From Hymenobacter tibetensis (GTDB lineage Bacteria > Bacteroidota > Bacteroidia > Cytophagales > Hymenobacteraceae), in the NCBI RefSeq assembly GCF_022827545.1, contig NZ_CP094669.1:1206001-1270000 (forward strand): 64,000 bases of DNA, given 5' to 3'. A program made the translations under genes and the position numbers. Below the pieces are notes generated by a model that saw only the letters and a program-made list of their open reading frames with translations, was not told where the DNA came from and searched no databases. Every line of letters starts with the position of its first letter. The first letter of the stretch is position 1. Positions 42,555 through 62,086 of the stretch are shown one piece after another.

Positions 42555-42585
42555 CGTCATGCAGAGGCGGAGCCGAAGCATGACG
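42555..42585 (+). repeat. Short copy of the palindromic repeat
   Basis: CGTCATGC (42555-42562) and GCATGACG (42578-42585) are perfect inverted repeats around GGCGGAGCC. This is a single arm of the larger family, with its inner end replaced by GACG, located in the gap between GH140 and GH43. Confidence 0.7.
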
Positions 42586-52389: not shown

Positions 52390-52549
52390 GTCATGCAGAG
52401 GCACAGCCGAAGCATCTCGCCCACCAAACTAACTCCTGACGTGAGCGGCAAAGAGGTTGAGATGCTTCGACAAGCAAACGCCAGATCAAGCATGATAATA
52501 CTGTTCCAACGTCAGCACGCGGGATGCTTCGGCTGCGCCTCTGCATGAC
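52390..52549. repeat. Palindromic repeat, composite copy B
   Basis: Arms at 52390-52420 and 52519-52549 (31 nt each) match at 29 of 31 positions as inverted repeats. Between them a 17-nt arm of a second repeat type (GAGATGCTTCGACAAGC, 52459-52475) is present, as in copy D. CAACGTCAGCAC (52507-52518) abuts the right arm, as in the element at 61678-62086. The unit is a mosaic of two repeat types between the GH78 and sialidase-like genes. Confidence 0.88.
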
Positions 52550-53753: not shown

Positions 53754-53850
53754 GTCATGCAGAGGCGCAGCCGAAGCATCTCGCTCGAATCGTTGAGTTG
53801 GCTTTGGCAACGTCAGCAGGCGAGATGCTTCGGCTGCGCCTCTGCATGAC
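53754..53850. repeat. Palindromic repeat, copy C (31-bp perfect arms)
   Basis: Arms 53754-53784 and 53820-53850 are perfect 31-nt inverted repeats with a 35-nt spacer. Each arm is itself an imperfect hairpin (ATGC..GGC..GCC..GCAT). The spacer is homologous to that of copy E when read on the opposite strand, so C is inverted relative to E. Confidence 0.92.
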
Positions 53851-55361: not shown

Positions 55362-55464
55362 GTCATGCTGAGCTTGTCAAAGCATCTCTCCCGCTGACTA
55401 TTGATTGGTAATTCAGCGAAGCAGTAGAGATGCTTCGACAAGCGGACATTAGATAGAGCATGAC
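55362..55464. repeat. Palindromic repeat type 2, copy D
   Basis: Outer GTCATGCT (55362-55369) and AGCATGAC (55457-55464) are perfectly inverted. Inner arms at 55372-55389 and 55426-55443 match at 17 of 18 positions (GCTTGTC.AAGCATCTCT). It shares ends with the other repeats but has different interior arms. The start codon of the next gene (55460) lies inside its right end. Confidence 0.85.
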
Positions 55465-57377: not shown

Positions 57378-57485
57378 AAGAACGTCATGCAGAGGCGGAG
57401 CCGAAGCATCTCGCGTGCTGAGGTTGCAGGGCTAAATCAACGATTCGAGCGAGATGCTTCGGCTCCGCCTCTGCATGACGTTCTT
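57378..57485. repeat. Palindromic repeat, copy E (37-bp perfect arms)
   Basis: Arms 57378-57414 and 57449-57485 are perfect 37-nt inverted repeats around a 34-nt spacer. The centre of each arm is GGCGGAGCC/GGCTCCGCC instead of GGCGCAGCC/GGCTGCGCC of copy C, changed on both arms together. The spacer begins GTGCTGAGGTTG, as in the GIY-YIG element. Confidence 0.93.
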
Positions 57486-60441: not shown

Positions 60442-60540
60442 GTCATGCAGAGGCGTTAGCCGAAGCATCTCGCGTGCTGAAGTTGCAACGGTAATCATAC
60501 ATAAGCACGCGAGATGCTTCGGCTAGCGCCTCTGCATGAC
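60442..60540. repeat. Palindromic repeat, copy F (37-nt arms)
   Basis: Arms 60442-60478 and 60504-60540 match at 36 of 37 positions, the exception being a G-U compatible change. The arm centre is GGCGTTAGCC/GGCTAGCGCC, different from copies C and E. The spacer is 25 nt. Confidence 0.92.
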
Positions 60541-61677: not shown

Positions 61678-62086
61678 GTCATGCAGAGGCGCAGCCGAAG
61701 CATCTCGCGTGCTGACTCCAGCAAACTACTCACACTTTTATGAGCTACTGCGTCTACCTGCTGACAAACCCTGCTCGCACCGTCCTATACACTGGCGTTA
61801 CAAATGACTTGGAGCGCCGACTGTACGAGCACTCCCAAGGGTTAGGAAACGCGGGCAAGTTCACCGGTCGATACCAGTGCAATCTGCTGGTGTACTTTGA
61901 AATATGCCCGGATGCTCGGCAGGCTATTGTTCGTGAGAAAGAAATAAAGGGTTGGAGCCGGGCTAAGAAAGAAGCCTTGATTACAGCATTTAATCCGGAC
62001 TGGAACCCTATCGATTTACGCACTTGGACTGAGTGAATTGACCCAACGTCAGCACGCGAGATGCTTCGGCTGCGCCTCTGCATGAC
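61678..62086. mobile_element. GIY-YIG-encoding palindromic element (copy G)
   Basis: Arms 61678-61716 and 62048-62086 are perfect 39-bp inverted repeats, 409 nt overall. The interior holds only the GIY-YIG gene: 23 nt separate the left arm from its start codon and 11 nt separate its stop from the right arm. The arms are those of repeats B, C, E and F extended to GTGCTGAC. The base immediately after the right arm begins AGACGATTT, shared with the right flank of copy B. It is proposed as an autonomous mobile palindrome; mobility is not shown by the sequence. Confidence 0.75.
61740..62036 (+). CDS. Small GIY-YIG nuclease (URI family)
   Basis: A 98-residue single-domain protein. GIY position reads VYL (5-7), YIG reads YTG (17-19), then DLERRLYEH (Arg26/27, His31) and KFTGRYQCNL. 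The catalytic Glu is probably Glu66 in IVREKEIKGWSRAKKEA. This is the COG2827-like pattern, complete and not frameshifted. GIY-YIG domains cut DNA with a metal ion; single-domain members have varied, mostly unclear roles. Here the gene is enclosed by the two perfect 39-bp arms of a repeat family, suggesting that it could act on that repeat. Start ATG 61740 is preceded by CACACTTTT. Confidence 0.93.
   Translation: MSYCVYLLTNPARTVLYTGVTNDLERRLYEHSQGLGNAGKFTGRYQCNLLVYFEICPDARQAIVREKEIKGWSRAKKEALITAFNPDWNPIDLRTWTE

Follow-up and report, generated by a model that had tools for sequence, protein, structure and literature searches.

A small GIY-YIG nuclease gene paired with palindromic repeats related to CGTC-tagged REPs in Hymenobacter and other bacteria

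We analysed a 64,000-nucleotide stretch of the Hymenobacter tibetensis genome (contig NZ_CP094669.1, positions 1,206,001 to 1,270,000; hereafter the window) in which, at 61678-62086, two 39-bp inverted arms, whose perfect match ends at both arm limits, enclose a gene for a 98-residue GIY-YIG protein and nothing else, with margins of 23 and 11 nt; this arrangement, described in an earlier sequence-only reading, was confirmed by reverse-complement comparison and by a match to PF01541. We read the element as probably the gene-bearing form of a palindrome family related to the CGTC-tagged repetitive extragenic palindromic (REP) sequences, with the nuclease as a candidate dedicated enzyme and the gene-less solo copies as its presumed non-autonomous passengers.

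Solo palindromes, each made of two inverted arms and a short spacer, lie close by (Table 1): between 49.6 and 63.7 kb of the window, the open frames taken as genes meet at seven junctions, six of which are occupied by a palindrome, and the seventh is an overlap of frames. Four solo copies had been said to carry the arms of the element; four are present, which we take to be B, C, E and F, but their arms resemble those around the gene without being identical to them, six lying within eight mismatches over 39 positions (1, 1, 2, 7, 7 and 8) and the remainder being detected by a looser pattern only. A GTGCTGA..GTTG segment, said to be common to the gene-bearing copy and the solo spacers, is part of only some of these spacers, others reading TCGAATCGTTG. 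The window arms read CCGTCATG and, on the opposite strand, TCTGTCATG, and carry the CGTC/TGTC tag at the outer end. Open reading frames start inside arms at 57454 and 62061, where the repeat is translated as MLRLRLCMT...; these may be annotation artefacts. Across the 6.33-Mb genome there are 18 arm cores at up to three mismatches (a reversed control pattern gave 0), 14 of which form seven outward-tagged pairs, the gene-bearing element among them.

Table 1. The nuclease element and related palindromes in the window
Feature	Position	Strand	Evidence
5' arm, CGTC-type palindromic repeat unit, tag outward	61678..61716	+	Perfect reverse complement of 62048-62086
GIY-YIG nuclease gene, 98 aa	61740..62036	+	PF01541 E 5e-17, invariant residues, structure model
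3' arm, tag outward	62048..62086	-	Perfect reverse complement of 61678-61716
Solo palindrome B	52390..52549	.	Arm search and looser pattern; G023 has same junction, other left arm
Solo palindrome C	53754..53850	.	Arm search and looser pattern; in G023, arm and spacer replaced in place
Solo palindrome D, diverged	55362..55464	.	Looser pattern search
Solo palindrome E	57384..57479	.	Arm search and looser pattern; strong fold as single-stranded DNA
Solo palindrome F	60442..60540	.	Looser pattern search
Single arm-like piece	42556..42584	+	Looser pattern search

The PF01541 match of the enclosed gene, which is over the cut-off, is its sole Pfam match up to E 1; up to the same limit the scan found no transposase inside the element and no second domain in the 98 residues. 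GIY-YIG nucleases are recognised by the tyrosines of the GIY and YIG motifs together with a conserved arginine, glutamate and asparagine. Y6, Y17, G19, H31, E54, K67 and N85 are invariant in a 40-row alignment, and R65 and E66 are kept in at least 90% of its rows; the first-helix arginine is invariant in the 10 rows of a second alignment, A3, and is not among the positions kept in at least 90% of the 40 rows. Judged by its sequence, the window protein has the residues of a GIY-YIG nuclease. An alignment-based structure model reached a mean predicted local distance difference test (pLDDT) score of 90.0, against 37.6 for a single-sequence model; its top-ranked structural matches are GIY-YIG nucleases and UPF0213 proteins, and restriction-type and other GIY-YIG folds rank lower. 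The UPF0213 matches are hypothetical-protein entries, and Slx1 has longer chains, several of which are complexed with Slx4; a fold shared with either shows no function. The only two other PF01541 matches of the genome fall in frames 671 and 516 codons long. Comparison of the homologous coding sequences shows purifying selection on the nuclease protein.

Homologues of the nuclease occur in 52 of 61 Hymenobacter genomes and in 64 of all 99 genomes searched, the matches in one of them (G024; genome and locus labels are ours) being fragments. At the 90 loci of the genus sample, which includes the window's own, we scanned 250 bp on each side for gap-free inverted repeats; 63 loci are flanked by repeats scoring at least 15, and none of 351 shifted positions in these loci is. 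Twenty further loci (six from the genus, four fragments and ten at order level) gave 11 of 19 at this score against 0 of 72, with no match at L317. A control scan of 35 other window genes gave two such scores, both adjoining junctions that hold the palindromes described above. Chance as the origin of the inverted repeats is ruled out by the shifted-position controls in several sets of loci. The 90 genus loci represent 31 sites; 17 of these are single occurrences, and at two the element is flipped.

Arm type follows nuclease clade: on the nuclease tree, which rests on 95 columns and has many open forks and the kinship of the genomes still in the comparison, arm type changes 12 times against a shuffled mean of 48.2, with arm types assigned by eye and neither arm nor gene types assigned blind. 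Genomic copy number rises with the matching gene for TCC arms (p 2.5e-4) and TGC arms (p 2.1e-4), and less cleanly for the CCT type, whose genes are associated with CCT arms (p 0.011) but also with GCx arms (p 0.016), all of these p-values ignoring the relatedness of the genomes. Identity between the two arms of an element averages 95% over 30 nt, and the partner arm is the best or equal-best match among all arms in 32 of 44 elements. These comparisons support a type-specific pairing of nuclease and repeat. If the nuclease were an ordinary dispensable gene around which palindromes moved by something else gather, one would expect what is indeed seen, several palindrome kinds occupying the same junctions in different genomes and, in the window, six of seven junctions filled; the very large excess over shifted positions, the tracking of clade by arm type and the close match between the two arms of most elements all speak against such hitchhiking, which we consider distinctly unlikely. 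A partnership between enzyme and repeat, by the same comparisons, is very probable.

The linkage extends well beyond the genus. A plasmid collection gave 41 matching records, from which 16 loci were fetched; nine of the 16 score at least 15 within 500 bp, and by eye 11 have tagged repeats on both sides, in Sinorhizobium, Shinella, Neorhizobium, Rhizobium CIAT894, Novosphingobium aromaticivorans, Azospirillum lipoferum, Sphingobium, Aeromonas, Neisseria, Planktothrix and Spirosoma. When species genomes were scanned with alignment A3, 66 of the best 80 loci scored at least 15 against 4 of 289 shifted positions, a figure that favours flanked clades and is no random sample, since the members of A3 come mostly from known flanked loci. 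By their record titles, the flanked loci among these 80 include Alpha-, Beta-, Gamma- and Deltaproteobacteria, Nitrospirae, Armatimonadetes, Patescibacteria-type lineages (Uhrbacteria, Moraniibacteriota), Bacteroidota and candidate division LCP-89; the unflanked ones include one Patescibacteria, one Ignavibacteriales and one Acetothermia locus. With a loose pattern, the tags of the 66 flanked loci point outward in both arms at 48, in one arm at 10 and only inward at 6, with none at 2. Thirty further Bacteroidota loci gave 17 flanked, against 1 of 118 shifted positions. Linkage in several phyla is plain, and the sequence data support a nuclease-repeat link that is widespread, not local. None of 13 long GIY-YIG frames (those of 25 lying fully inside fetched loci) is flanked at a score of at least 15, and among 14 remote small GIY-YIG genes from related orders none has a GTC tag in its best arm, three having another inverted repeat of at least 15. 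This remote set leaves out L382-L386 and L381, the latter a broken near relative with TGTCATCCTGA arms scoring 19.

A 2013 description from five phyla presents CGTC-tagged REPs as repeats that "apparently lack a dedicated transposase" (Di Nocera et al., PMC3733652), and no word in its main text begins with GIY. The present repeats share with them the CGTC/TGTC tag, the arrangement as inverted dimers and the high copy number as that paper describes them (PMC3733652). Two features differ: each CGTC REP unit has a stem-loop of 8-9 bp that starts with AT, which the window arm lacks, and an unpaired tail that is mostly CCA, where the window arm has CTCGC (PMC3733652). Because its own stem and the CCA tail are missing, we do not file the window arm as a CGTC REP, only as related to them. 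Several proteobacterial arms beside the nuclease do have the CGTC REP build, for example CGTCATCCTCGGGCTTGACCCGAGGATCCA in Sinorhizobium meliloti, and a CCA tail is seen in the S. meliloti, Shinella and Azospirillum repeats. The element had been proposed as a possible new kind; its palindromes are relatives of the known CGTC REP superfamily as set out in that description (PMC3733652), and the new part is the link to an enzyme. No link of GIY-YIG proteins to palindromic repeats was found in the open-licence literature, which does not cover preprints and subscription papers, and no paper in it combines 'GIY-YIG' with 'repetitive extragenic palindromic' or with 'dRS3'.

The arms themselves appear to be built as hairpins. 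Arms at Hymenobacter loci start with (C/T)GTC-AT, and in 101 of 156 distinct arm-like sequences the triplet that follows GTCAT or GTCCT is fully complementary to a triplet near the other end, whereas 500 shuffles gave 25.9 on average and never more than 38; the complementary triplets are of nine different sequences. Such covariation suggests that each Hymenobacter arm is, or was, a hairpin. The arm type of the window, GCA/AGC, has one mismatch in the three positions and a stem broken by mismatches. Solo palindrome E with short flanks folds strongly as single-stranded DNA (-51 kcal/mol, z -13), as does the S. meliloti repeat unit (z -4.87). Copy number reaches 624 in a congener, and in the congener G016, 32 of 40 listed places of one arm type (318 counted in the genome) lie in tag-outward pairs. 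Most listed pairs of solo arms in G016, G002 and G031 have a characteristic start-to-start spacing, about 128 bp for TGC, about 50 for TCC and 60-74 for CCT.

A close precedent is that of REP doublets forming hairpins (REPINs), which are thought to be moved by REP-associated tyrosine transposases (RAYTs) (PMC3116915). In the account given there, REPINs are likewise inverted repeat doublets that act as a unit, with one or few enzyme genes flanked by matching repeats, but RAYTs are tyrosine (HUH) transposases (PMC3116915), whereas the present element encodes a GIY-YIG domain alone in 98 residues. One might suppose that a RAYT or an IS200-like transposase moves these palindromes too and that the GIY-YIG gene is cargo, a view to which the precedent (PMC3116915) and the persistence of solo copies in nuclease-less genomes lend some weight. 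Among the CGTC-positive species that are listed as having tyrosine transposases, however, none of those genes is reported as CGTC-flanked (PMC3733652; the presence of RAYTs lay outside our own searches), and the same cargo family would have to have been picked up in several phyla, which makes this explanation very unlikely.

Orthologous junctions with and without the gene were found in four genera. In Azospirillum lipoferum 4B the nuclease lies between sufB and sufC; both the gene and any tagged repeat are missing from this junction in A. oryzae, A. ramasamyi and strain B510, which are about 94% identical. The nuclease and its repeats are present in Shinella HZN7, while S. sumterensis and S. 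oryzae, at about 80% identity, lack both; Shinella HZN7, WSC3-e and WSD5-1 covered the full query, and the next five records, two of which were aligned, covered about 590 bp less. The gene is present on the Sphingobium plasmids TYG46, MM7A and TYG73, and at its place TYG64 has one CGTC palindrome whose left and right halves equal the outer halves of the left and right arms, respectively; an altered version of this palindrome is carried by TYG74, and something else by TYG72. Novosphingobium junctions gave no clean comparison.

One Hymenobacter junction (site 1) holds the gene in five genomes and lacks a nuclease match in 28 orthologous copies. Nine of these 28 hold a palindrome in which exact tags, of three types, stand on both strands (G046, G045, G011, G038, G025, G041, G048, G007 and G032), nine have no inverted repeat of at least 14 (G020, G039, G015, G014, G003, G051, G028, G022 and G006) and ten hold other palindromes. 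At L338 (G022) and L343 (G006) a similar piece of about 420-470 bp stands instead of a palindrome. The near relative G023 has the same junctions as window palindromes B, C and E, with arms or spacers exchanged or altered in place. G009 and G024 share both neighbour genes of the window's own junction and have no nuclease there (L117 and L119 were left out of this comparison); other palindromes fill the junction, so that no element boundary can be read. The junctions look, from these alignments, as if they had been repeatedly re-occupied by different palindrome families. The junctions concerned, which hold unrelated palindrome families in different Hymenobacter species, are those at L115 (G009), L118 (G024), L331 (G034), L334 (G047), L344 (G043) and L362 (G013). 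The sequence-only reading is partly supported: GIY-YIG genes with flanking arms are widespread, arm type follows nuclease clade, and the gene is missing from some orthologous junctions.

Several observations weigh against our interpretation, in addition to the unblinded typing, the association of CCT-type genes with GCx arms, the uncorrected p-values and the composition of A3 given above. Tagged repeats on both sides are missing at four of the 16 plasmid loci (Rhizobium K1/93, Acidiphilium, Salinivibrio and Sphingomonas), and the Photobacterium locus has them downstream only. The five nearer homologues L382-L386, from two other genera, have no GTC-tagged arm pair, one having another repeat at 15.5. 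The window arm alone folds no better than its shuffles (z 0.95) and is a poor hairpin. The alignments of diverged junctions in Azospirillum, Sphingobium and Shinella resolved no target-site duplication, which with a transposase defines an insertion sequence or MITE, and this sequence comparison observed no cleavage, excision or transposition. Two of the observations that the sequence-only reading had named as refuting it also came partly true. A separate arm search left 25 of the 90 genus loci armless, 18 of them at one shared site, and 23 of the 25 fall in one nuclease clade of 32 that has mostly lost its arms; 20 loci (L033 and L035-L038 among them) have one upstream flank in common, and only L032 and L074 keep arms there. 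Conversely, ten of the 61 Hymenobacter genomes lack an intact small gene (G005, G006, G021, G024, G027, G028, G032, G055, G058 and G060), having only frames of at least 500 codons and, in G024, three of 269-298 codons; G024 and G058 also have fragments. Of the ten, nine carry at least 17 arms of at least one type (for example 617 GCx in G024, 326 CCT in G060, 97 TGC in G021, 89 TCC in G058 and 17 TGC in G005), with two arms in all in G028.

A strict rule tying gene to arms is therefore ruled out by the armed genomes that have no intact nuclease, as by the armless homologues. Arms that abound without an intact gene mean that repeats outlive their enzyme, as expected of passengers. The only near relative of the nuclease in G024 consists of broken pieces (L316, contig 11, 246400-249700) in a genome with 617 GCx arms; perhaps the enzyme was lost there recently. 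The armless copies are the more constrained, with a median ratio of nonsynonymous to synonymous substitution rates (dN/dS) of 0.084 (92 pairs) against 0.195 for the other copies (30 pairs), and they are rarely broken: 1 of 24 contains in-frame stops, as against 10 of 66 among the others; at one conserved site they are possibly a domesticated host gene. Taken further, such a pattern could mean that the nuclease serves the host throughout, trimming or resolving cruciforms, with the adjoining repeats regulatory or accidental, and the modelled resemblance of its fold to Slx1 would suit that role. A house enzyme, though, needs neither a flanking substrate nor 31 sites; host service is unlikely as a general account and is best seen as the later fate of one clade. 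Both kinds of uncoupling agree with an old element that has undergone gene loss and domestication.

We accordingly retain the reading of a nuclease element with passenger palindromes. The earlier suggestion that the nuclease is the mobiliser stands as far as a type-specific, widespread pairing goes; a role in spreading the repeats is likely. How it might act is a tentative matter. GIY-YIG enzymes hydrolyse DNA and do not rejoin strands. The nuclease would recognise the tagged hairpin or cruciform and cut the palindrome, and host repair might then copy a sister element into the break with the arms as homology, a homing-like spread in which the nuclease would be the analogue, acting as a hydrolase, of the RAYT for REPINs. 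Copying would be left to the host because the enzyme does not rejoin strands, and we favour cutting and repair over strand transfer because the fold hydrolyses DNA, because palindromes at a site seem to be not only gained but also replaced, and because the Sphingobium gene splits a palindrome found alone in a relative. Hairpin cutting followed by repair from a sister copy is, as a specific mechanism, possible, though we would not put it at even chances. GIY-YIG homing endonucleases such as I-TevI, which cut the gene-less allele at a defined site and are copied into it, differ from the present protein, which has a single domain, palindromes at its flanks and numerous gene-less solo copies.

A second nuclease family may show the same design. 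At another junction, a PF13366 (GxxExxY) gene lies inside a different long palindrome in G020, G057, G028 and G021, and G042 has a similar palindrome there without the gene. PF13366 loci were collected at L349, L352, L353, L354 (the tgt-lptG junction), L348 and L388-L417. Of 28 full-length loci, 22 have flanking inverted repeats of at least 15, whereas none of 112 shifted positions does; this sample consists of best matches, one per genome, and leaves out L388 and L400 (cut by contig ends). Their arms are of a different kind, often CGCAGAG-like. PF13366 with its own palindromes is likely, on this sequence evidence, to be a second nuclease-palindrome pair, which suggests that pairing of nuclease and palindrome may be a general design. 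Whether a hairpin and a lone hydrolytic nuclease (GIY-YIG with CGTC-type, PF13366 with CGCAGAG-like arms) form a class of minimal mobile elements, the nuclease cutting palindromes of its own type into which host repair copies the element or a solo hairpin without a transposase, seems to us only slightly short of an even bet.

A candidate enzyme of fewer than 100 residues makes the question of the missing transposase of CGTC REPs directly testable. If our reading is true, the orphan CGTC REPs of several phyla gain their enzyme. A nuclease-plus-repair route would then join the known transposase route for the spread of small palindromes, and the common annotation 'GIY-YIG nuclease family protein' would be explained, as perhaps would that of the PF13366 family.
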